Part shown: piece after piece, positions 49,860-64,000 of the stretch
Layout of the letters: each line of letters starts with the position of its first letter
How positions within the stretch are numbered: the stretch's first letter is position 1
From: Oscillospiraceae bacterium
GTDB lineage: Bacteria; Bacillota; Clostridia; Saccharofermentanales; Saccharofermentanaceae
Reading direction: 5' to 3'
Assembly (NCBI GenBank): GCA_902787975.1
Contig: CADAIP010000006.1
Span: 75,193-139,192, forward strand
DNA: 64,000 nt
Program-made: the position numbers and the translations under genes
The notes under the pieces: generated by a model
What the model was told of the DNA's origin: nothing
The model's database searches: none
Seen by the model: the letters and a program-made list of their open reading frames with translations, nothing else

Positions 49860-50768
49860 TCAGCCGAGATCTACAACAGGGATTACTGCACCATTGTAGT
49901 TATCCTGGATCCACTGCTGTGTTTCTTCTGAGAGAAGAGCATCAACGAGTGCCTTGACTGCAGGATTGTCCAGATCTTCTGTTCTTACTGCGATGATGTT
50001 TGCGTAAGGGCTGTCTTCACCTTCGCTGAAGAGCTTGTTTGATGTGATGCCTGCTTCGAGTGCTTTGTTTGTGTTTGTGATGAAGAAATCATAGTCATCC
50101 TTTGTAGGAATGATCTGTGCTGAATCGATCTCTACGATCTCGATGGGCTTAACATAAGAAACGATATCATCTACTGAAGCGGAGAGAGAATCTCTTGCTG
50201 CATCATCGAGCTTGATGAATCCGTTGAGCTCAAGGATCCTGAGTGCCCTGTATTCGTTTGTGCCGTCATTGGGGATTGCGACTATAGCGTTGTCGGGTAC
50301 TTCGTCAACAGAAGCATACTTATCAGAATATGCTGTGATGGGTTCGATGTGGATACCGCCTGCGCTTGCAAGATCATAGCCGTTTGCTTCTATTTCGCTC
50401 TCGAGATAAGGAAGATGCTGGAAGTAGTTGAAATCGATCTCGCCGGAATTAAGTCTCTCGTTTGTTGTTGAATCTGCAGCCGTAGAAACGAGCTCGATGT
50501 AGATACCCTGTTCTTCAAGCTGGGGTCTTACGTGTTCGATGATCTCAGAGTGGGGAACGAGGTCAACGATACCTCTCAAAACGATCTTTTCTGTTGTTTC
50601 TTCGCCGGAAGTTTCTGCTTCAGACTGCTGCTCTTGTGTAGCAGAAGTATCTACCTCAGCTGCATTGAGTGAAGTGCCTGTGCTCTTTGAAGAGCAGCCT
50701 GCAAGGCCTAATGCGAATGACGCAATCGTTGCGATTGAAATAAATTTTGTTGCAATGTTCTTATTCAT
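49860..50768 (-). CDS. metQ: substrate-binding lipoprotein of a MetNIQ-type transporter
   Basis: The 302-residue product has a signal peptide with lipobox LAGC (Cys at 25), a Ser/Thr/Glu linker and an NlpA/MetQ domain with VDLVPHSEIIEHV, FNYFQHLPYL and AIPNDGTNEYRALRIL. MetQ proteins bind methionine or related sulfur compounds. Here it is the third transporter gene, downstream of metI- and metN-like genes and the nitrogenase-like genes. The actual ligand may be a methylated sulfur compound rather than methionine; that is inference from context. Confidence 0.85.
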   Translation of the reverse strand: MNKNIATKFISIATIASFALGLAGCSSKSTGTSLNAAEVDTSATQEQQSEAETSGEETTEKIVLRGIVDLVPHSEIIEHVRPQLEEQGIYIELVSTAADSTTNERLNSGEIDFNYFQHLPYLESEIEANGYDLASAGGIHIEPITAYSDKYASVDEVPDNAIVAIPNDGTNEYRALRILELNGFIKLDDAARDSLSASVDDIVSYVKPIEIVEIDSAQIIPTKDDYDFFITNTNKALEAGITSNKLFSEGEDSPYANIIAVRTEDLDNPAVKALVDALLSEETQQWIQDNYNGAVIPVVDLG

Positions 50769-50789: not shown

Positions 50790-51500
50790 TTAAATAAGAT
50801 TTCTTGTTTTTAGTATTTGTTTTGATATAAGATTTCCGATCCCCTGGATCAGCTGAACCAGAATGACCAGGATATATACACAGGCGAAAAGTTTGTCGTG
50901 CTGGAATCTCTGGTAACCGTATCTGACTGCAATGTCTCCGATACCGCCTGCACCGAACATTCCCGCGAGTGCCGTCATGGAAAGGACCGTGATGACCGAT
51001 ACTGTGAATCCTCTGATCAGGGAAGGTAATGTCTCCGGAATAAGTATCCTGAAGATGATATTAAGATTTGAGCTTCCCATAGCTTTGGCTGCTTCGATCT
51101 TTCCTTTCTCGATCTCCAGAAGGCTGCTCTCGACGATCCTCGCATACATTGGGATACAGCTTGCTGCGATGGCAATAATGCATGCATTTGTACCGTATGC
51201 TTTACCGAAGATGAGTCTTGCTACAGGTATCATGAGAATGATCATTATCATCTGCGGCAGTGATCTCAAACAGTTGATTATCCAGCCTGATACCGAGTAG
51301 GAGATCTTGAGCGGTACGAGTCCGTCAGGATTGGTAACAGTGAAGAAGACTCCGATTACCAATCCGAAGACGAGCATTATCAGAGAAGATATCGCCGTCA
51401 TGTAAAGCGTCTCGCCGATCGGACCCCAAAGATCTTTCCAGATTTCAGGGGAGAAGGATGCTACGATAACATCCCATAAAGATGAATCCAATAAACTCAT
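50790..51500 (-). CDS. metI: MetI-type ABC permease
   Basis: The 236-residue product has about five to six membrane helices and the permease loop EAAKAMGSSNLNIIFRILIPE (about 133-153), with ALAGMFGAGGIGDIAVRYGY near the end. These match MetI, the permease of methionine importers. It lies 10 bases after the ATPase and 21 bases before metQ, in one operon with the nitrogenase-like genes. Confidence 0.88.
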   Translation of the reverse strand: MSLLDSSLWDVIVASFSPEIWKDLWGPIGETLYMTAISSLIMLVFGLVIGVFFTVTNPDGLVPLKISYSVSGWIINCLRSLPQMIMIILMIPVARLIFGKAYGTNACIIAIAASCIPMYARIVESSLLEIEKGKIEAAKAMGSSNLNIIFRILIPETLPSLIRGFTVSVITVLSMTALAGMFGAGGIGDIAVRYGYQRFQHDKLFACVYILVILVQLIQGIGNLISKQILKTRNLI

Positions 51501-51510
51501 TTTCTCCTCC

Positions 51511-52296
51511 TCAAATACCGCCGCCGTGGGTCAGCTCGACATTCTGCATCTGCATGAATACTCTTGCAAATAGTTCTCCGGTCTTGCTGTGCGGATTCTC
51601 AAAGATATCTCTTACCGAACCGCTTTCCGTTATCTTGCCTTCTTCAAGAACAGCCATCCTCTTACATGAATATCTGATGGCATCAAGTTCATGAGTGATC
51701 ATAAGGATCGTTATGCCTTGCTTTCTGTTTATCTCCTTAAGAAGGTCAAGTATCTGGATGGTGGTCTGCGGATCGAGTGCTGATGTCGCCTCATCTGAAA
51801 TGATGAAATCAGGATTGGTGACGATTGCTCTTGCGATTCCGACTCTTTGCTTCTGTCCTCCGGAGAGTGCTCCGGGATGGGCTTTGAGCTTATCTGTAAG
51901 ACCTACCAGTTCTGCTGTTTCCAAAACTCTCTTTTTGATCTCGTTCTTGGGAACACCTGCGATCTCAAGCGGGTAAGCTATGTTCTTGTAAACAGACAAA
52001 CAGTCGAAAAGATTGAAACTCTGAAATATCATTCCGATCTTATGACGTTTTTTGAGGATCTCTTTATTAGAGAGCGACAATATGTCTGTTCCACCGAGTT
52101 TTACCGATCCGCTGTCAGGCTTTTCCAAGCCGTTGATGCATCTGGCAAGTGTTGATTTTCCTGCGCCGGAGAATCCGATGATTCCGAAGATCTCGCCTTT
52201 CTCAATCTCAAGATCGATACCTTCCAATACTTTCAGCGGCTGACCATGAGGATAAAAAGTTTTGTGCAGATCTTTTATCTTAAGATATGTACTCAT
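51511..52296 (-). CDS. metN: MetN-type ABC ATPase, short form without NIL domain
   Basis: The start at 52296 lies 4 bases after the nifB-like stop; a longer frame would overlap the nifB-like gene by 55 codons. The 261-residue product has Walker A GFSGAGKST, signature LSGGQKQR, Walker B FIISDEATSALD and Switch His in THELD. MetN is usually about 340 residues with a C-terminal NIL (ACT-like) domain that binds methionine and shuts off transport. Here the protein ends about 20 residues after the ATPase core, so that control should be missing. It is joined to the nitrogenase-like genes by near-overlap. Confidence 0.88.
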   Translation of the reverse strand: MSTYLKIKDLHKTFYPHGQPLKVLEGIDLEIEKGEIFGIIGFSGAGKSTLARCINGLEKPDSGSVKLGGTDILSLSNKEILKKRHKIGMIFQSFNLFDCLSVYKNIAYPLEIAGVPKNEIKKRVLETAELVGLTDKLKAHPGALSGGQKQRVGIARAIVTNPDFIISDEATSALDPQTTIQILDLLKEINRKQGITILMITHELDAIRYSCKRMAVLEEGKITESGSVRDIFENPHSKTGELFARVFMQMQNVELTHGGGI

Positions 52297-52300
52297 TGTC

Positions 52301-53575
52301 TTAACCGTGGCTGAAAGTATCAGCGGCCCTTTCTTTCCTGTCTTTGTAAAGTTCGTTATGAAGGTCTTTGCCTTTGCCCGGAATTCCGAGACTGTCTGCA
52401 CGGCAGTGCTGGCAGTGGCGGAAGACTTCAAGATATTTGCCTGCTTCCTGTCTGACTTCTTCAAGATCAGCGCAGGAGGGAGCCTTGATATCTTTCATCT
52501 CGTTTTGCGGGATAAGAGGAATGATATTCAGTATGGAAGCGCCGAGTTCGGCAGTTTTCTTTGCTACTTCGGGTATATGCTTATCGTTAATGCCCGGCAC
52601 AAGCACACTGTTTATCTTTACTACTATTCCTTTCTGGGCTGCTAGGCGGATGCCTTCCAATTGCTTCTCGATGAGAAGCTTTGCACCTTCTACGCCATCG
52701 TGTCTCTTGCCTTCGGAATCGATTACGAAGTTGTTTATCTGAGCTTCGATCTCAGGATCTATGGCATTGACTGTGACAGTAAGTGTCTCGATTCCGATTT
52801 TGGCGATCTCCTCGACCTTATCGGGAAGACGGAATCCGTTTGTGGAAAGACAGCAGATAAGGTCGGGAAAGTTTTCTTTTACTAATCTGAATGTCTCAAG
52901 AGCGCTGTCCGTAGCAAGCGTATCGCCGGGACCTGCAATTCCGACCACTGTTAGTTCAGGGCAGATCTCTCTTGCTTTCTTAACTGTTTCCACTGCTTCT
53001 TCCGGCTTCAATACGAGTGAACTTACACCCGGTCTGATAACCGATTTGTCAAACCCTCTGCTGCAGAACCTGCATCCGATGTTGCACACGGGGCTGACGG
53101 GAAGGTGAAGCCTTCCGGCGGTCACATTCGAATGGCCTCCCAGGCATGGATGTCTTTTTTGAAGGTTTTCAAAAGAATGGTTTTTATTGTCTCCATTGTT
53201 TTGTTTCCTTTCTTTCTCTTCTTTGTATCGTGGATCTACAATGTCCACACGGGCAGTGAAGAGTTTGTTGATAACAAATTCAACTTCACGCTCAATGTCG
53301 ACGCTTTGTATTTTTCTGTCGTAAAGGATCTTTCTTGCGTGCTCGCCTGATCTTGCTGAGAAAACGATGTTGCAGTCATCTATCTCGTCAGCGAGTCGTT
53401 CAAGAAGGGAATCGTCATGCTGCAGGCTTACACCGAGGCTGTCGATCCTTCTGGTATCGACCTTGACGAATGACTTGTTATCTCTGTCAATCTCATAGAT
53501 ATCAAATCTGTCAGCCACACCGAAGTGCCGGTTGATATTGATTCCGTCTCCTGTTGCAAATGCTGCTCTTAACAT
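52301..53575 (-). CDS. NifB-like radical SAM protein with N-terminal NifX-like domain
   Basis: The 424-residue product has an N-terminal NifX/NafY-like domain (about 1-105; FATGDGININRHFGVADRF) and then a NifB-type radical SAM domain with HPC (142-144), CNIGCRFC (Cys 164, 168, 171), AGPGDTLA and HCRADS near the C-terminus. NifB makes the iron-sulfur-carbide core of nitrogenase cofactors. In known two-domain NifB the NifX-like domain is C-terminal; here the order is reversed. It follows nifH after 10 bases and precedes the transporter. It suggests that the D/K proteins hold a complex cofactor. Confidence 0.88.
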   Translation of the reverse strand: MLRAAFATGDGININRHFGVADRFDIYEIDRDNKSFVKVDTRRIDSLGVSLQHDDSLLERLADEIDDCNIVFSARSGEHARKILYDRKIQSVDIEREVEFVINKLFTARVDIVDPRYKEEKERKQNNGDNKNHSFENLQKRHPCLGGHSNVTAGRLHLPVSPVCNIGCRFCSRGFDKSVIRPGVSSLVLKPEEAVETVKKAREICPELTVVGIAGPGDTLATDSALETFRLVKENFPDLICCLSTNGFRLPDKVEEIAKIGIETLTVTVNAIDPEIEAQINNFVIDSEGKRHDGVEGAKLLIEKQLEGIRLAAQKGIVVKINSVLVPGINDKHIPEVAKKTAELGASILNIIPLIPQNEMKDIKAPSCADLEEVRQEAGKYLEVFRHCQHCRADSLGIPGKGKDLHNELYKDRKERAADTFSHG

Positions 53576-53585
53576 GTTTACTTCC

Positions 53586-55778
<2,193 letters not shown>

Positions 55779-55797: not shown

Positions 55798-57282
55798 TTA
55801 TCTTGCGCAGCCTCTGCCGGAACCGTCGCCCTGGAAGTAACCGGGATCCTGTTCAAGCCACCACTTTGTGTAGGGGTTTGAAGCGTGCTTGGAGTAATTC
55901 TTTATGAACTCAATTGAGTCCAATGTATCTTCAATTCTTCTTGCATAATTCAATGCGCCCTGGTAACCGATACCAAACTGCTCGTCACCGATGAGAAGGG
56001 AAGGAATGCCGAACTTTGCTCCCCAGAGTGTCATTCCGCCGTGTCTTGCGAGAATGAAGTCAGGCTTGATCCTGTTGAGTGCATTTACGAGCTCACATGC
56101 CTGCTTGTTGCATACCCTGTAATCGGGTACGTCACCATAGTTTTTAACTGCCTGGCCTAAGATATCGAGCTTATCGTCACCGCTGTCATATACCGGATCG
56201 TGATGGAATACGGCAGCACCGACAACTTCAAATCCGAGTTCGTTGAGAAGTGTTATGAGAGCCTGACCATGTGCGGCACCTGCTGTTACATATGCTCTCT
56301 TGCCCTTGAACTTTTCCTTGAGTTTATCGATCTCGGGAACGTACTTTTCGTGGCCTTCCTTGATGATCTCTTCAGCGATATCTTCTTTGCCAAGTACCTT
56401 GCCCAGAGCTCTGAGCCATCTGTCTGTTCCTGCGACACCATATGCCGGAGGCACGAGGACTTCAGGTACTCCGTGGAGCTGGTTCAATCCGGCTCCCATG
56501 TATGTTGAAAGTGAAGGGCAGATGTGGATCGTAGCAGCAGCTTCGCTTGCGTGTGAGAGCTGTTCTACTGTTGAGAAAGGTACGATATACTGTGCTTCGT
56601 AACCGAATCTCTCGATGATCTCATCGAAAACATGGCTGCCCCAGAAATTGATGATGTTGATCTTGTTTGTTTTCTTTTCTGCAGGCTTTACTATGCCTCT
56701 TAACACTGTATGGTATGCAGCATCAAAACCTGTTGTCCAGATCTTTGATCGGAAGCCTTCGCAGTTGCATGTGACAACCGGGATTCCGAGTTCTTCTGAA
56801 GCTTTTTCAACTACTGCTTCAATGTCTTCTCCGATGATGCCTGATGCGCATGAAGTTGTTACGAAGATTGCATTCGGATGAACTCTGTCATATGCAAGCT
56901 TGATTGTTTCTTCGAGCTTTTTTGCAGCTCCGAAAACAGTATCCTTCTCAGTAATGTTAGATGAGAAGTATCGTCCTAATTCGGGAGGAAGATTTCTTCT
57001 TGCCTGTTCTACTCTGTATGTGAAATTGAAATCTGCAAATTCTCCTGAGCAGCCGATGGGAGCGTGGTTGATAACTGCTGCATCCCTGATCATTGCGAGC
57101 TGGCAGAAAGCCTGCTGCTGGTTGCAGCCGAGGCACTGTGAGAATTTTCTCTTGCAATCTTTGAGTTCACCCTTGGCAGACTTTTCTACGATTTCAGAAG
57201 CTGTACCTGTGAACGCGTTGATCGTTCCGAGTCTCTTTTCGCGTATCACTACGCTGGGCTCTTTAATGTTTATTGTTGACAT
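55798..57282 (-). CDS. nitrogenase-like component 1, NifD-type subunit
   Basis: The start at 57282 has AGGAG; the upstream ATG at 57327 lacks one. The 494-residue product keeps P-cluster ligand candidates Cys53 (LGCNQQQ), Cys78 (APIGCSG) and Cys145 (TTSCASGIIGED). Cys255 (IHICPSLS) aligns by eye with the cofactor cysteine of NifD (Cys275). The position of the cofactor histidine (His442) falls at Gly432 in LLIGDEQFGIGYQG. So a cofactor is probably bound, but not in the normal way. It is the first gene of the operon; the operator and promoter are described separately. It may be a methylthio-alkane-reductase-type or another uncharacterised enzyme. Confidence 0.9.
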   Translation of the reverse strand: MSTINIKEPSVVIREKRLGTINAFTGTASEIVEKSAKGELKDCKRKFSQCLGCNQQQAFCQLAMIRDAAVINHAPIGCSGEFADFNFTYRVEQARRNLPPELGRYFSSNITEKDTVFGAAKKLEETIKLAYDRVHPNAIFVTTSCASGIIGEDIEAVVEKASEELGIPVVTCNCEGFRSKIWTTGFDAAYHTVLRGIVKPAEKKTNKINIINFWGSHVFDEIIERFGYEAQYIVPFSTVEQLSHASEAAATIHICPSLSTYMGAGLNQLHGVPEVLVPPAYGVAGTDRWLRALGKVLGKEDIAEEIIKEGHEKYVPEIDKLKEKFKGKRAYVTAGAAHGQALITLLNELGFEVVGAAVFHHDPVYDSGDDKLDILGQAVKNYGDVPDYRVCNKQACELVNALNRIKPDFILARHGGMTLWGAKFGIPSLLIGDEQFGIGYQGALNYARRIEDTLDSIEFIKNYSKHASNPYTKWWLEQDPGYFQGDGSGRGCAR

Positions 57283-57362
57283 GTGTTTCTCCTTCTTCGA
57301 TATGCGCACATTGTGTTTGCATCGCAATTTTCGAATGAGGAGATAATAACGCTGTGATCCGG

Positions 57363-57380
57363 TTTGCGATAATACGCAAA
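57363..57380. promoter_or_regulatory. palindrome TTTGCG-N6-CGCAAA
   Basis: A perfect 6+6 base palindrome with a 6-base centre between the MET-box-like operator and the -10 element of the nitrogenase-like operon. It overlaps the -35 area, so it could be a repressor site. No such palindrome is seen upstream of the second operon. Confidence 0.45.
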
Positions 57381-57390
57381 AGCGATACTG

Positions 57391-57413
57391 GGTTATAGAC
57401 GCAGCCTATAACC
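57391..57413. promoter_or_regulatory. MET-box-like LysR operator, nitrogenase-like operon
   Basis: GGTTATAG and CTATAACC flank a 7-base centre, giving TATAG-N7-CTATA (centre 57402). This equals the form of the streptococcal MET-box. The centre is about 66 bases before the predicted start of transcription, the usual activation site of LysR-type regulators. The same motif, with the same symmetry and distance, lies upstream of the amidotransferase operon. Confidence 0.65.
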
Positions 57414-57583
57414 TGTAAAGGAGTTTTTACCTCTTTGTTTGAGAGCTTATAAAGTGCTGAAAATAAAGCATGTTACAATACATAAACAACACTGCTTGAC
57501 ACGTATTATTTACTTGGATATAAACATATTCACAAGATGATATGGATGATGATTTGAAAGCAGGATTATGGGGATAAAAACAG

Positions 57584-58795
57584 ATGACGGACACAATTAC
57601 AAAACAACAGGCTAGACAGTTCATACTTGCAAAACAGGGTCTGATAGGGACTTACCGTTTCACGGGAAAACAGGGAGCTTACGAGTATGTCCGTCAGGCA
57701 GGATGCATACAGTACGATCCCGTTGACGTATGCGGTAAAAATGCTGAACTTACCTTGCAGTCAAGGGTAAAGGGTTTTAAGAAGACGATGCTTCATGAGC
57801 TCCTTTATAAAGACCGCCTTTTTGTGGATTATCCGGATAAGGAATTATCCATCTGGCCTTCGGAAGACTGGTCGTATTTCTCGTCTTACAGGGAGAGAAG
57901 CATTAAGTCCGGCAAGTCATTTAAGGGACTTAAGAGACTTGAGAAAGAGGCAATCGAATATATAGATAAGCACGGTCCCGTAAGCAGTGATACGCTCCCG
58001 ATCGAAGGTGAGATATTCTGGCATTCTTCGATGCATTGGAGCGGAAACTGGGACAAGAAATCTCCTGCGGCAAGATCAGTTCTTGAGCAGCTTTATACGG
58101 ACGGAGTCCTAGTTATACACCATAAGAAAGGAAGCCGTAAGTTTTACGATCTTGCGGAAAAACATTTGCCGAAGAATTATCTTGAAGCTGACAATCCCTG
58201 TAAGGATGAAGAGAGTTTTCTTTCATGGAGAGTGTTAAGAAGGATCGGTGCCGTGGGACTTCTTTGGGATAAAAACAGTACGGCATATCTGGGTTTGTAT
58301 CTGAATGCTGAAACGCGCAAAACGATTCTTTCTGATCTGCTGTCTTCGGGAAAGATCATTGCTGTCATGGTAGAAGATATCAAGCAGCCGTTTTATTATC
58401 TATCTTCCGATGATGAACTTATGCAGAAGGTGAAGAGTGGAAGTGCGGATCTTAAACCGCGCATGGCTTTTGTAGCGCCGCTCGATCCGTTGTTCTGGGA
58501 TAAGTCATTGATACAGGCATTATGGGATTTTCAATACACCTGGGAAATCTATACTCCTGCTGCAAAAAGAAAGTATGCGTACTATACTTTGCCGGTCCTT
58601 TACGGTGAAAGGTTTGTGGGACGCATCTACGTCGTTCCGGATAAGGACAGATCTGTTCTTATGGTCAAAGGTCTTTGGTGGGAACCAGGTGTCAGACAGA
58701 CCAAAAAGCTGGGAGCTGCTTTGGAGAAGACTCTTAATACCTTCAGTAAGTTTAATTGCTGCAATGACTTTGAGATAAGTACTGATTTACTTTAA
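57584..58795 (+). CDS. YcaQ/AlkZ-family DNA glycosylase-like winged-helix protein
   Basis: The 403-residue product has the family motif in GCIQYDPVDV (IQxD, about residues 39-48) and the following ELTLQSRVKGF, then LAPLDPLFWDKSL-type block (written FVAPLDPLFWDKSLIQ here) and PVLYGERFVGRI. The QxD motif residues are needed for unhooking of DNA crosslinks in AlkZ/YcaQ; here it is QYD, so activity is plausible. It is divergent from the nitrogenase-like operon and convergent with the glutamate-cysteine-ligase-like gene, with an overlap of 4 bases. Confidence 0.8.
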   Translation: MTDTITKQQARQFILAKQGLIGTYRFTGKQGAYEYVRQAGCIQYDPVDVCGKNAELTLQSRVKGFKKTMLHELLYKDRLFVDYPDKELSIWPSEDWSYFSSYRERSIKSGKSFKGLKRLEKEAIEYIDKHGPVSSDTLPIEGEIFWHSSMHWSGNWDKKSPAARSVLEQLYTDGVLVIHHKKGSRKFYDLAEKHLPKNYLEADNPCKDEESFLSWRVLRRIGAVGLLWDKNSTAYLGLYLNAETRKTILSDLLSSGKIIAVMVEDIKQPFYYLSSDDELMQKVKSGSADLKPRMAFVAPLDPLFWDKSLIQALWDFQYTWEIYTPAAKRKYAYYTLPVLYGERFVGRIYVVPDKDRSVLMVKGLWWEPGVRQTKKLGAALEKTLNTFSKFNCCNDFEISTDLL

Positions 58796-60081
58796 ATATT
58801 TGAAGTTACAGTTTTAAGTCCGTTGCCCAGAAAATCATTGCCGTAATCTTCCAGAACACGCTCGGCATATCTTTTGCCCGTGCCGTCGATCTTGGCTTTC
58901 TGGTAAGCGATGATCTCAGTTATTTCAGATGCCTGCTTTTCGGATAATTCTGAATATAAACCGCCGTAGAATTTCTCAATGTTTTCGAGCAATTCCAGTG
59001 AGGCTTCCCTCAAAGTTACAAACCTTCCGTCACTTAACATTATGCGGTTTGTATCCAGATTAAAATGAGCAGCATTCTTGAAATTGATCGCGCTTTTTAT
59101 CTGGCGTTCCTCGCTAAGTGTTTCAGCGGGCCTGGATGCTTCGTAAAGCGCGAGCATTCTTATGAACTTAAGATCACGGACATCAAGTCCGCCGTATGCA
59201 TAGGGATTGATGTCGATGTTGCGGAGCTCTATGTGGTTAATGCCTTTTTCTTCCAGGATCTCAAGTGAATTCGGACCTCTAGGCTTGATCCTTACAGGAT
59301 AGTAAAGTTCCGTCTGGGAAGTGATCAGGCCATCGTTAATGTATTTCCTGATGCTGTCTGCATAAGCTTTTGTGCCGGTGTAATCAAGCACGGGTATGAA
59401 CAGATTCCAGTAACCCAGTTCGCTGCAACGGACAGAAGCCATGCCGAGGAAATCCGTTTTCCCTTTGACACCCTGTTCCAGAAATGAACCGTCCAATACA
59501 GGTGAAGCAGACAAGAGTACGTTGATAATCCAGCCGTCGGATACGAGGTTCGATGCAAGATCCAGATAGATCCTGTCTTTAAATTCTCGTAACGGCAGAT
59601 CAGATCTTGAGGCATCGTATTCAGCCATGATCAGTTCTTCGCCTAACGAGAAGTTTACATGTATGCCGCTGAACGTCATCTTGTATTTACCGTACATTTT
59701 CGCAAGGTAATCCCTGTAGAGCGTCTTGTCGTATAACGGACCTGTGAAAGTTGCAACCGGAATGTCTTCTTCATCTTTTATATATGGCGGATTGGAAAAG
59801 TGCCATACATATTCTTTTTCAGGAAGATTGCGTAAGACTTCACGAACATGACGTTCGTAAGATTCGAGTTCATTTATTGTGTCCTCTTCATTTGACGATA
59901 CACCCGTATTTATCTCAATCTGGTTCTCGCAAAAGTCTCTTACTATATATTTGTCGACAGGGAATGGGTGAGGAGTATGCGCGAAAGTTCCGTCTCCCAA
60001 AACTCTGAGAGATTCTTTTTCCAAACCGAATTCGTATTTGGAGAATTTGGCGGCTACTCCCGGATCTTTGTAGTGCAACAT
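58792..60081 (-). CDS. glutamate-cysteine ligase (GshA/GshF-type)
   Basis: The ribosome site is AAAGGAG. The 429-residue product has FGLEKESLRVL near the start, CENQIEINTGVSSNEED (ATP/Glu-binding region), FSGIHVNFSLGEE (about 143-155) and YPVRIKPRGPNSLEILEEKG. These match the GshA and N-terminal GshF ligases that join glutamate to cysteine. The glutathione synthetase half of GshF is missing, so the product would be gamma-glutamylcysteine or a related gamma-glutamyl amide. It is the last gene of the operon, 21 bases after the second ligase-like gene. Confidence 0.85.
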   Translation of the reverse strand: MLHYKDPGVAAKFSKYEFGLEKESLRVLGDGTFAHTPHPFPVDKYIVRDFCENQIEINTGVSSNEEDTINELESYERHVREVLRNLPEKEYVWHFSNPPYIKDEEDIPVATFTGPLYDKTLYRDYLAKMYGKYKMTFSGIHVNFSLGEELIMAEYDASRSDLPLREFKDRIYLDLASNLVSDGWIINVLLSASPVLDGSFLEQGVKGKTDFLGMASVRCSELGYWNLFIPVLDYTGTKAYADSIRKYINDGLITSQTELYYPVRIKPRGPNSLEILEEKGINHIELRNIDINPYAYGGLDVRDLKFIRMLALYEASRPAETLSEERQIKSAINFKNAAHFNLDTNRIMLSDGRFVTLREASLELLENIEKFYGGLYSELSEKQASEITEIIAYQKAKIDGTGKRYAERVLEDYGNDFLGNGLKTVTSNI

Positions 60082-60102
60082 ATGGAGCTCCTTTTATTGC
60101 AG

Positions 60103-61482
60103 TCAGATCTCGGCGTATGCCTTAATGATCTCGGTAAGAGTCTTGCCCTCAGAAAGCATCTTGAGCTTATCTTTTCCGGCAGAAGACAATCTGTCGGCGC
60201 GGTCGTAAACAGGAGACAGGAGTGACTCTTCGCCCAAGCCTCTTTCCTTAAGGCCTTCTTCTGACAGATTAACGATCTTGATGAGTAATGATCTCAGATC
60301 ATCACGGTTTACAAAAGCCGGGAGCTCTTTATAGCTGAACAGTCTTCTTAATTCATTTGCGTTATAGCTGTGTCCGTAGATGACTTTATCATTGGATAAA
60401 ATCTCATCCAATTCCGGGAGCTTAGATGCAAGACCCAGCTGGAATGCGATTCCTGCCAGTGCTTCGCTGAATGGCTGAGTGCACATGCTCCTGTATTCGA
60501 TAGTTCCTCTTGCAGTAAGTTCGATGAACTTGTAAGAACGCAAAAGTCCGATGTCTTTCTCGGCGTCGGGCACGAACAGAGTTTTATGGTATTCACCGTT
60601 ATTATAGAATTCGCCGTCTATGAAGTTGCGCGTTGCATATTCGGTAAAAGGAACAGGGCGGAAGAAGATATATCTTTTATCTCTTTCAGCACAAAAGATG
60701 CTTGTCGTTGAGATGTAATCGACAAGAGCATCGATGTCTCTAATGTCGACATCATATATGCCGATATTATGAGGATTGATGCCGTGTGTGCTGTATTCCC
60801 ACAGCATGTCGCGGGCCAGTATAAGATCAGGCTCGTCTTCGGGCATGTCTGAATTTGCGAACAGGACTGCTTTAAGCGGTTCGAGAAGTGAGAATACCCT
60901 GAGTGTTTCTGCAAGGTTTTCTTTCTTTACATCCAACTGGATCTGGGTCGCACTTGCAAAGGTTCCAAAGCCCGGATACTTATGGAATCCGCCGATCCTT
61001 TTCCATGCATCAGCTTTGCGCAGATACCCTTCAAGCATCTTATAACGACCGCAGTCGATATAATCCTGTCTGCACTTTTTGTAGTAAGGCTGAATGCCGA
61101 GGCCGGTCAGAATGTGATTGTCTTTTCCGAGTTCTTTGTTAAATAGTGTGATGTATTCCCTGAGTCTCTCATTGACATCCAGAAGACTGCCTTCTTTGCC
61201 GAATGAGATCTCGAGATTGTTGTACGAACAGTCAAAAGAGAACAGGTCGCCGTTTTTCTCGTTCAGCGCCTCATGATTGTAACCGCGGTTATCGAACTTG
61301 ACCTGTTTGAGGCCGAGCTGTTCAACAACGCTGCTGAATGCCTTTCTGCTGACATTGTGGGATGTAGCTTCACCTGAGAGGTTTACTACGGGCATCTCGA
61401 TCTCAACGCCGACATATGTTTTTCTGTCAGCTTCAGTAGGTTTGATGTATTTGTCGTAGATTAATTCTCTTATGTCTTTCAT
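60103..61482 (-). CDS. glutamate-cysteine ligase family 2 (GCS2-like) protein
   Basis: The 459-residue product has TYVGVEIEMPVVNLSGE (about 21-37), FDCSYNNLEISFG (acidic metal-binding strand), FATATQ-type sequence (written TFASATQIQLDVKK) and IELTARGTIEYRSMCTQPF. These fit the GCS2/EgtA group of gamma-glutamyl ligases. It is a different family branch from the 58792 product, so the operon has two distinct gamma-glutamyl ligases. It starts 15 bases after the amidotransferase gene. Substrate unknown; cysteine or another amine is possible. Confidence 0.8.
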   Translation of the reverse strand: MKDIRELIYDKYIKPTEADRKTYVGVEIEMPVVNLSGEATSHNVSRKAFSSVVEQLGLKQVKFDNRGYNHEALNEKNGDLFSFDCSYNNLEISFGKEGSLLDVNERLREYITLFNKELGKDNHILTGLGIQPYYKKCRQDYIDCGRYKMLEGYLRKADAWKRIGGFHKYPGFGTFASATQIQLDVKKENLAETLRVFSLLEPLKAVLFANSDMPEDEPDLILARDMLWEYSTHGINPHNIGIYDVDIRDIDALVDYISTTSIFCAERDKRYIFFRPVPFTEYATRNFIDGEFYNNGEYHKTLFVPDAEKDIGLLRSYKFIELTARGTIEYRSMCTQPFSEALAGIAFQLGLASKLPELDEILSNDKVIYGHSYNANELRRLFSYKELPAFVNRDDLRSLLIKIVNLSEEGLKERGLGEESLLSPVYDRADRLSSAGKDKLKMLSEGKTLTEIIKAYAEI

Positions 61483-61497
61483 AAGCTCACCCCACTA

Positions 61498-62271
61498 TTA
61501 AAGTCCCGCATAAGCCAGATAGAGAGCCCTGATAGCCTGCTCGTCCGGAATGTATTCGCCTTCGTGTTCCCTGCCTGACAGATATGGCTCTCCGTCCTTG
61601 TAAGATACGAGCGTCTTGAAGGGCAGGTGATCCCATGTTCCTTCTGACAGGGGATTGGTGGAAAAGATCGCGCCGTCATCAGTCTGATTAACGTAAAGTG
61701 AATCTTTATAGTTGGTGTGAAGATAAGTCTGTTCACCATCGAAAAGGATTATGTTCAGTTTGTTTTTGGGAGAAAGCTTTGTGACGATGGCATCGATCAC
61801 GTCAAATCTCTCTTTTGAGGTAAGCTCGCGGCCGGCATCATCTATCTTCGCGTTGATCTTGTCGATCAGATAAAGGAAGACTCTCTCACTGTCCGTGTGT
61901 CCTTTCTGCTTATACGAGTAGATGCTTAAGTCATCACATTCGAATATCGTACCGTTATGCGCGAAAGTCCAAAGCCTTCCGGACTTGTCATAGCCGGAAA
62001 AAGGGTGGGAGTTGTTGTAGTCATCCATGCCTATCGTGGCAAGTCTTATGTGTCCGATAAGGTTTTGGGATTTACCGGTCTCTTTGATTATTCTCTCGAG
62101 ATTGCTGCTCTTATAAGCTGCAACGCGTTCTTTGTATATGAAGGATTGTCCGGCATCGAAAGAAGCCAGGCCCCAGCCGTCGGGATTATTTACCGAATGC
62201 GAGAAAAACTCGGTAAGCAGACCAGTGAGGTCTGTTCTTTTCTTGCCTGAAAAACCGAATATCTCGCACAT
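61498..62271 (-). CDS. class II glutamine amidotransferase (EgtC/YafJ-like)
   Basis: The 257-residue product begins MCEIFGFSG, so Cys2 would be the N-terminal nucleophile after Met removal. VNNPDGWGLASF (about 28-39), GHIRLATIG and the FAHNGTIFE block (about 107-115) complete the Ntn-hydrolase glutaminase or amidase site. YafJ and EgtC enzymes hydrolyse gamma-glutamyl bonds; in ergothioneine synthesis EgtC removes a gamma-glutamyl group put on by EgtA. With two gamma-glutamyl ligases downstream, the same logic may apply here. It is the first gene of the operon, with a MET-box-like operator before it. Confidence 0.85.
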   Translation of the reverse strand: MCEIFGFSGKKRTDLTGLLTEFFSHSVNNPDGWGLASFDAGQSFIYKERVAAYKSSNLERIIKETGKSQNLIGHIRLATIGMDDYNNSHPFSGYDKSGRLWTFAHNGTIFECDDLSIYSYKQKGHTDSERVFLYLIDKINAKIDDAGRELTSKERFDVIDAIVTKLSPKNKLNIILFDGEQTYLHTNYKDSLYVNQTDDGAIFSTNPLSEGTWDHLPFKTLVSYKDGEPYLSGREHEGEYIPDEQAIRALYLAYAGL

Positions 62272-62319
62272 AACTTACTAATCCTCTAATTAATAAACAC
62301 CAATTAAATCAATAGGAAT

Positions 62320-62349
62320 ATTCTATGTGTTTGTACTGTCGTGTGCCAA
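62320..62349 (-). promoter_or_regulatory. promoter of the amidotransferase operon
   Basis: Minus-strand -35 TTGGCA (62344-62349) and -10 TAGAAT (62320-62325) with an 18-base spacer. The operator centre at 62379 lies about 66 bases before the expected start. Confidence 0.6.
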
Positions 62350-62367
62350 TACAGAGTGCCAATTAAG

Positions 62368-62390
62368 AGTTATAGGTAAAACCTATAGCT
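62368..62390. promoter_or_regulatory. MET-box-like LysR operator, amidotransferase operon
   Basis: TATAGGT and ACCTATA flank AAA: a perfect TATAG-N7-CTATA palindrome centred at 62379, next to the end of the LysR gene. The arrangement is identical to the one upstream of the nitrogenase-like operon. Confidence 0.7.
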
Positions 62391-62394
62391 CGCA

Positions 62395-63312
62395 TCAGAC
62401 CTTATTCAGATACTCGTTGATCTTCTCGATATAGAGTTTTCCCAGTCTGCTCGGAACGGTGTTTTTGCGGGTGATGTAACCGATCTGCATCTTGCTCTCG
62501 CTGTCGTCTTCTTCAGCTTTGAATGGAATGGCAAGATAGTCGTCACCGTTTAATTCTTCGCAGATGATTCCGGAGCAGAGCGTATAGCCGTTAAGGCCTA
62601 CCATGAGGTTTAATATCGTAGCTCTGTCGCACGCTTTTATGATCCTTGAATAATCTTTTGTACTGAGTATCTCTTCCGCATAATAAAAAGACGAATCGCC
62701 CTGCTCAAAAGACAGACACGGATATTCTTTTAAGTCTTCAAAAGTAATGGATTTCTTTTTCGCCAGAGGGTGACCCGACCAAAGATAAACATATGCATCG
62801 CAGTTGATCAGCGGATGGAATTCAAGACCGGCTGCCCTGAGAAGTTTGCCGATCGCTCTTTTATTGAATTCGCTTAAGTAGATGATGCCGATCTCGCTCT
62901 TAAGATTTGAGACGTCAGAGATTACTTCCTGTGTTCTGGTTTCCCTGATGGCAAGCTCATATCTGGATGTATCGTTATCTCTTACCAGTTCGACGAAAGC
63001 CTTTACGGCGAAAGAATAGTGCTGTGTGGAAACGCCGAACTTCTTTTTGAAGTTCTTTGAACTGTCAAAGCGCTCAACAAGTTCTGAATAGTCGTTTATT
63101 ACCTGTCTGGCATAAAGGATAAAATCAGAACCTTCGGGCGTCAGGGTAACGCCTCTTCCGCTTCTGATGAAGATGGAGATGCCAAGCTCTTTTTCCAGTT
63201 CCTTAACTGATTCTGTCAGGGATGGCTGTGAGACATACAGAACCTCAGAAGCCTTGTTGAGAGAACCGGCTTCAGAGATGGCAATGGCATAGCTGAGCTG
63301 TTGCAGAGTCAT
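62395..63312 (-). CDS. LysR-family transcriptional regulator
   Basis: The start at 63312 has AAAGGA and gives the usual LysR beginning MTLQQLSYAIAISEAGSLNK; an ATG at 63378 is less likely. The 305-residue product has the N-terminal winged helix (ASEVLYVSQPSLTESVKELE) and a LysR substrate domain typical of the CysB/MetR/CmbR-like range, with CLSFEQGDSS and VGLNGYTLCSGII. It is encoded upstream on the same strand as the amidotransferase operon, with the operator just after its stop. I infer that it binds the two TATAG-N7-CTATA sites. Confidence 0.88.
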   Translation of the reverse strand: MTLQQLSYAIAISEAGSLNKASEVLYVSQPSLTESVKELEKELGISIFIRSGRGVTLTPEGSDFILYARQVINDYSELVERFDSSKNFKKKFGVSTQHYSFAVKAFVELVRDNDTSRYELAIRETRTQEVISDVSNLKSEIGIIYLSEFNKRAIGKLLRAAGLEFHPLINCDAYVYLWSGHPLAKKKSITFEDLKEYPCLSFEQGDSSFYYAEEILSTKDYSRIIKACDRATILNLMVGLNGYTLCSGIICEELNGDDYLAIPFKAEEDDSESKMQIGYITRKNTVPSRLGKLYIEKINEYLNKV

Positions 63313-63525
63313 GGCAGTAGATCCTTTTCTGATAATTTTTAAGCAAGTATAATACATTTTGCGCGAAAAACCTATCAAAATAGTATGATAATAATGCCGA
63401 TTTCTTTAGGCAATTTCTATAAGCCTGGTTTCATGGTCGGATCGGTGAACTAAAAAAATAAATCAAGCATTTGATATAATGATTGCGTGTATATAAGCCC
63501 TTTTAGTTAACCTTTGGAGAGATAA

Positions 63526-64000
63526 ATGGACAGGCCGGTAACGACTCTTTTTATGCTGGTGTCAGTAGACGGTAAGATCAGCACGGGTTCTACGGATAAC
63601 ATGGATGTGGATAAGGATCTTCCCATGGTCGAAGGCGTCAGGGAAGGACTCCATCAATACTATGATATCGAACAGACAACGGATCTGTGGTCATTTAATA
63701 CCGGACGTGTCCAGGCAAAGATGGGCGTCAATGAAAAGCCCGCCCCCGGCAAAACACCAGTGTCTTTTGTGATCCTGGATAACCATCATCTGACAGAACA
63801 AGGAGTGCATTACTTCTGTGAATTCTCCAAAGAGTTTGTTCTTGTAACGACTAATCCCGAGCATCCTGCATTCGGCATCAAGGCTGATAATCTTCACATA
63901 ATCCTTCAACAGGAATTATCGCTTGCGGATATGCTTAGGACCCTTAAGTCAGATTATGGATGTGAGCGCATTACGATCCAGTCAGGCGGAACTCTGAACA
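63526..64000 (+). CDS. RibD C-terminal-domain reductase-like protein, 3' partial
   Basis: The start at 63526 has GGAGAG upstream, and the frame runs off the right edge. The visible 158 residues begin with TTLFMLVSVDGKISTGSTDN, the dihydrofolate-reductase-like NADPH fold opening of RibD_C proteins, and continue with SFNTGRVQAKMG and CERITIQSGGTLN. These are features of the pyrimidine reductases related to riboflavin synthesis. Whether it acts in riboflavin synthesis or on another substrate cannot be told without the rest of the gene. Confidence 0.75.
   Translation, partial: MDRPVTTLFMLVSVDGKISTGSTDNMDVDKDLPMVEGVREGLHQYYDIEQTTDLWSFNTGRVQAKMGVNEKPAPGKTPVSFVILDNHHLTEQGVHYFCEFSKEFVLVTTNPEHPAFGIKADNLHIILQQELSLADMLRTLKSDYGCERITIQSGGTLN

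Follow-up and report, generated by a model that had tools for sequence, protein, structure and literature searches.

Why do a nitrogenase-like operon and a gamma-glutamyl-thiol operon carry the same short palindrome in front of their first genes? The question is raised by a stretch of 64,000 nucleotides (hereafter the window) from contig CADAIP010000006.1 of an Oscillospiraceae bacterium, whose named relatives mark it as a metagenome-assembled genome of the Saccharofermentans type from the rumen. It had been predicted that TATAG-N7-CTATA occurs here twice and that the two copies join both operons and a LysR-type regulator, LysR1, in one sulfur regulon with a shared operator resembling the streptococcal MET-box. 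Both copies are present exactly:

57391–57413, unstranded, Operator 1, GGTTATAG-N7-CTATAACC, upstream of marD, exact match
62368–62390, unstranded, Operator 2, core TATAGGT-AAA-ACCTATA at 62371–62387, exact match
62395–63312, minus strand, LysR-type regulator LysR1 with HTH_1 and LysR_substrate domains, also placed by a tree

It is highly probable that both sites are LysR operators of one common sulfur regulon, and the prediction is borne out by conservation over many genomes, by targets nearly all of which are sulfur genes, and by operator changes which track the regulators. Since the signal is retained or replaced among relatives according to the LysR regulator present in each, the pair very probably represents a real regulatory switch and not a coincidence. 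That LysR1 itself binds both sites is likely, with somewhat less confidence.

In the proposed mechanism LysR1 would recognize TATAG-N7-CTATA, a LysR box of the T-N11-A form located about 66 bp ahead of the point where transcription starts. By analogy with CmhR and MtaR it would activate both operons upon scarcity of methionine- or cysteine-type sulfur, a signal presumably conveyed by a ligand. The first target would be marD-marK-marH-marB with the MetNIQ transporter, releasing methanethiol from methylthio compounds, and the second the operon of a glutamine amidotransferase (GATase) and gamma-glutamyl ligases, with a predicted role in the synthesis or processing of gamma-glutamyl thiols.

Sites, putative promoters, and predicted target genes

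The two 8-bp arms of Operator 1, GGTTATAG-ACGCAGC-CTATAACC, form a perfect inverted repeat around a 7-bp spacer, with the core at 57394–57410. The core of Operator 2 lies 7 bases past the LysR1 stop codon and upstream of the GATase gene. The outer arms TATAG/CTATA of both sites are identical to those of the MET-box but the inner TT/AA is missing at both. The canonical MET-box TATAGTTTnAAACTATA is absent in exact form from this genome according to a genome-wide scan. As a separate observation, the half-site of the operator following a LysR gene includes the stop codon of that gene (TAG or TAA) in two LysR clades (loci L085, L087, L093, L107, and L109–L117).

In the window two exact copies of TATAG-N7-CTATA compare with 0.05 expected, and a count of two was reached in none of 100 dinucleotide shuffles. 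When one mismatch was allowed three matches were found with 1.5 expected, a count equalled by 19 of 100 shuffles; significance is thus limited to the exact form. No further copy had been noticed in the window, which is correct for the exact form but overlooks one with a single mismatch:

63405–63421, unstranded, one-mismatch copy TTTAGGCAATTTCTATA, between the LysR1 gene and the divergent gene at 63526

A possible role of this copy in autoregulation of LysR1 is weakly indicated, as it is conserved only in the near-identical genome G015. It is not kept in G089, and the candidate was dropped (G000 is the genome of the window, other G numbers are comparison genomes and L numbers are loci). Further palindromes in G000 were likewise not accepted into the regulon. 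Exact copies at C30 (inside a glycosyltransferase gene), C5, and C23 have no sulfur context. A perfect palindrome TATAGGC-GGC-GCCTATA at G000:C18:11814–11830 (L225), 47 bp before an operon with SufC/SufBD-like ABC genes, is kept in the near-identical G015, lost in G089, G074, and G091, partial in G027, and of the TATAA type (A-type, described below) in G082.

LysR regulators usually recognize their DNA about 66 bp before the transcription start. Both operators had been placed at this distance, and two putative promoters bear on this:

62320–62349, minus strand, putative thiol-operon promoter TTGGCA-N18-TAGAAT, promoter scan match 10/12
57342–57374, minus strand, putative mar promoter, TATTATC at 57374–57368 and TATTATC at 57348–57342, 26 bp apart

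The distance is a fair description for Operator 2, whose centre precedes by 66 bp the transcription start expected from TTGGCA-N18-TAGAAT (62349–62320). For Operator 1 it holds only if TATTATC at 57348–57342 is the −10 element, as no sigma-70 consensus was found by the scan at the mar promoter. An alignment of mar promoters from the genus shows the TATTATC pair to be conserved, and the pair may function as a promoter. T-N11-A is contained in TATAG-N7-CTATA and, judged by sequence, the spacing fits a LysR site near −65.

The thiol operon downstream of Operator 2 consists of the following genes:

61498–62271, minus strand, class II glutamine amidotransferase (GATase_4), EgtC-like, with the EgtC model far below its cut-off
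60103–61482, minus strand, remote glutamate-cysteine-ligase-like protein with weak matches only, to plant-type glutamate-cysteine ligase; same operon in L210
58792–60081, minus strand, GshA-type glutamate-cysteine ligase, Glu_cys_ligase 1.2e-55

The protein at 60103–61482 has no Pfam match, and its neighbours are an EgtC-like GATase and usually GshA. Operator 1 precedes the second operon:

55798–57282, minus strand, marD-like, nitrogenase-like alpha subunit, PDB 9fmg 1e-129, best true nitrogenase 1.9e-35
54447–55778, minus strand, marK-like, PDB 9d9u/9fmg 1.2e-124, the three MarK P-cluster cysteines conserved
53586–54420, minus strand, marH-like reductase in two frames, split by an 8-bp gap relative to G027
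52301–53575, minus strand, marB/nifB-like radical SAM protein, Radical_SAM and Nitro_FeMo-Co domains, NifB model 1.2e-94
51511–52464, minus strand, MetN-like ABC ATPase, ABC_MetN 3.6e-86, true start probably about 52300
50790–51500, minus strand, MetI-like permease, from its open reading frame and position within the met transporter
49860–50768, minus strand, MetQ/NlpA-like lipoprotein, Lipoprotein_9 7.3e-69

The designation nitrogenase-like operon could be refined, since by their similarities (1e-129 and 1e-124 to 9fmg/9d9u versus 1.9e-35 to the best true nitrogenase alpha chain) these proteins are assigned to the methylthio-alkane reductase (MAR) family. Alignment to 9fmg showed all cluster ligands of MarD (C66, C91, C158, C270, and H429) as well as R428 to be present (residues according to PMC12552129). 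Among the active-site positions C73, Q74, W195, F199, and H375 are retained and H194 is replaced by isoleucine. The product of the operon probably frees sulfur from methylthio compounds. All four of the B, H, D, and K genes are in the window, with marH frameshifted in this assembly and intact (280 amino acids) in relatives; MAR in this assembly may be non-functional, or the 8-bp gap may be an assembly error. Separately, L120–L128 (sister genus g5 and some congeners) contain one or two other nitrogenase-like DK pairs (32–45% identity) with NifB and NifH, near pyridoxal phosphate (PLP) enzymes of cysteine and methionine metabolism and LysR genes.

Conservation and possible exchange of the operator

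Operator 2 is found in exact form between a LysR1 orthologue and the GATase gene in G015, G089, and G027, with much of the surrounding sequence diverged. At the mar promoter a TATAG-type site is kept in G089, G027, and G077 at about the same distance to the ATG as in the window, and in all tested congeners (Saccharofermentans) the mar operator starts 125–136 bp before the ATG. The mar operon has a LysR1-type gene in its vicinity in G000, G089, G027, G091, G035, and G077. Beyond the family, exact sites occur before mar in the Lachnospiraceae loci L156, L157, L159, and L160 and in the Oscillospiraceae locus L207, and the 17-mer TATAGACGCAGCCTATA before marD of L160 is identical to that of the window. 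The Lachnospiraceae with exact copies before mar comprise Butyrivibrio MB2005 and WCD3002 and two others. In L210 an exact site precedes a thiol operon which is 43% identical to that of the window.

The genes behind these sites belong to sulfur amino acid metabolism or salvage: mar-metNIQ and the gamma-glutamyl ligase operon here, and metNI, cysteine/methionine PLP enzymes, and metE elsewhere. Exact sites stand before metNI next to LysR1 orthologues (genomes G041 and G060; loci L085 and L087) and before PLP enzymes of cysteine/methionine metabolism in L092 and L093. A total of 2.31 Mb of loci contained 29 exact copies (22 distinct) with 2.0 expected, nearly all of them intergenic and before sulfur genes; as these loci had been picked for LysR or mar, the count tests placement and is not an unbiased frequency. 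Perfect-core palindromes were detected in 9 of 213 control regions, which were the upstream regions of other genes within the same loci, and eight of these belonged to sulfur genes or were the mar site itself, the ninth preceding an unrelated LanC-like gene.

In about twenty congeners the gene immediately upstream of marD encodes another regulator, LysR3, which is about 50% identical to LysR1. A LysR1 orthologue with at least 60% identity is absent from all of these genomes, and the sets of genomes with LysR1 (60–99%) and with LysR3 are disjoint. All 19 distinct LysR3-marD promoters carry TATAA-N7-TTATA or a one-base variant of it (e.g., CATAA) at the same position. In four LysR1 genomes the mar promoter could be read, and its operator is of the TATAG type. 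An uncorrected Fisher test (4 versus 18) yielded 1.4e-4, a value to be read with the shared ancestry of the genomes, which means few independent events. The thiol operon of the sister genus g5 shows TATAA-CCCATGC-TTATA at the matching place in three genomes. No simple residue code in the recognition helix was seen for G-type versus A-type operators.

These findings would be explained if regulator and operator had been exchanged together in a single anaerobic regulon for sulfur scavenging that has MAR and the gamma-glutamyl-thiol operon as targets. Paralogous LysRs would then use TATAG-N7-CTATA or TATAA-N7-TTATA at the same promoter position in close rumen relatives, with the same difference at both targets (at mar within Saccharofermentans, at the thiol operon between Saccharofermentans and the sister genus). 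We put this forward tentatively, as a serious possibility which falls a little short of the probable. In a further set of loci (L101–L106, L111–L113, and L119) a MET-box-like site is located before an operon of NMT1-like substrate-binding and ABC genes with DUF4418 and FtsX-like genes, and a LysR4 gene stands at the end of the operon.

Several observations weigh against both sites being LysR1-bound operators of one sulfur regulon. The genome-wide motif search which had been proposed as a check gave few hits: six exact copies in 2.72 Mb, where about five are estimated from composition, so there is no global enrichment and the statistics of a single genome are only suggestive. In G089 the mar promoter has a hybrid proximal site together with an exact distal site, and operons linked to LysR4 mix both operator types, so the operator code is not clean. 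The thiol operons of G011, G012, and G085 and most of the distant mar operons (those of Clostridium, Paenibacillus, Heliobacteria, etc.) are without such a site, which makes the operator link lineage-specific. The compared genomes are related and the counts therefore not independent. Finally, the genome of the window encodes a second LysR of the same family, LysR2, the nearer relative of the probable MtaR/CmhR. With metE preceded by a similar site, LysR2 could bind or share the sites of the window.

LysR1, LysR2, and other explanations

LysR2 (G000:C25; L129:4368–8544) is divergent from metE-metF (assigned by Pfam) and has a near-MET-box, CATAG-ATAAAAT-CTATA. The canonical MET-box was searched in 398 genomes of the phylum and found in only four, two of which (G406 and G117) are informative. 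G406 has canonical MET-boxes before metB-csd-like genes and is for this reason probably a Streptococcus, and its best LysR match, 43% identical to LysR1 and 52–56% identical to LysR2, is probably streptococcal MtaR/CmhR. The order LysR gene, canonical MET-box, metH in G117 matches the layout at Operator 2. In the tree LysR2 groups with the metH-linked LysR and the Streptococcus-like LysR (91/81), and LysR1 falls into another group (83/82). As the tree puts LysR1 outside of the MET-box-linked LysRs it is classed as a paralogue, and not as an orthologue, of the MtaR/CmhR-like regulator, to which LysR2 is closer.

The sites of the window might be real and have LysR2 as their main binder, with LysR1 regulating something else or only modulating. 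This reading draws on the grouping of LysR2 with the MET-box-linked LysRs and on the occurrence of CATAG-N7-CTATA/TATAG-N7-CTATG near the LysR2 start in 10 of 29 relatives, yet it is unlikely. LysR1 is physically linked to both targets, and genomes with LysR2 but without LysR1 have the A-type operator at mar. In addition all six LysR1-adjacent sites have G6...C12 (TATAGG-N5-CCTATA), whereas A6...T12 is found in 10 of 11 LysR2 sites. This difference favours LysR1 as the presumed binder at the thiol operon, and the mar site combines one half of either kind.

Since Operator 1 lies between two divergent genes it could alternatively serve the AlkZ-like gene at 57584 instead of mar. This gene is displaced in G089 and G027 while the site stays with marD, so AlkZ was rejected as the target, and such a role is very improbable. 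Chance, i.e., two unrelated AT-rich palindromes in one window, would agree with exact copies being no more common in the genome than composition predicts and with the insignificant one-mismatch count of the window, but position and sequence are conserved across genera and the sites are enriched at sulfur genes, leaving it hardly credible. Equally remote is an RNA element such as a terminator, riboswitch, or attenuator, to which the position of Operator 2 directly after the LysR1 stop codon might point, because the scan found no terminator-like site at either place, Rfam matches in the window are lacking, no gene ends before Operator 1, and the repeats are upstream of the putative promoters.

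Relation to known sulfur regulators and reductases

The organic sulfur compounds attacked by MAR enzymes yield ethylene, methane, or ethane. In Rhodospirillum rubrum the mar genes are regulated by the LysR-type protein SalR. No account of mar regulation in Bacillota was found in the literature searched, which mostly did not cover subscription papers. Now that a candidate regulator can be named, the operator is defined, and another operon is predicted to be regulated along with mar, control of mar in rumen bacteria would become directly testable, and exchange of regulator and operator at a fixed promoter position would constitute a natural experiment on the evolution of LysR operator specificity.

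The streptococcal MET-box regulon of MtaR/MetR/CmhR (PMC2627894, PMC5359408) resembles the system proposed here in having a LysR regulator of sulfur amino acid genes and a 17-bp palindrome with the outer arms TATAG-N7-CTATA. CmhR and MtaR are activators of methionine genes, and the streptococcal targets include metQ-type transporters and metEF (PMC2627894, PMC5359408). The inner bases of the streptococcal box (TATAGTTTnAAACTATA) differ from those in the window, and these two papers list neither MAR nor the gamma-glutamyl-ligase operon as a target. CmbR of Streptococcus pneumoniae (PMC5131005) is a LysR regulator of cysteine genes, and the A-type operators that go with LysR3 resemble its site GYGATAAAAAWWAYTTATMAC, in which ATAA-N7-TTAT is contained. 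CmbR acts as a repressor in S. pneumoniae (PMC5131005), and LysR3 does not group with the CmbR-like protein on the tree, where its placement is unsure due to a long branch.

With MarBHDK of Rhodospirillum rubrum (PMC12552129) the operon of the window shares homologues of MarD and MarK, the cluster ligands, and a NifB-like radical SAM protein. In contrast to R. rubrum it is linked to a MetNIQ transporter and to a MET-box-type operator, and His194 of MarD is isoleucine. The isethionate reductase IsrBHDK of Rhodobacter capsulatus (PMC11423573) is likewise a nitrogenase-like enzyme of sulfur assimilation and is induced by its sulfur source. IsrD keeps one of the three P-cluster cysteines (PMC11423573), whereas the protein of the window has all three.

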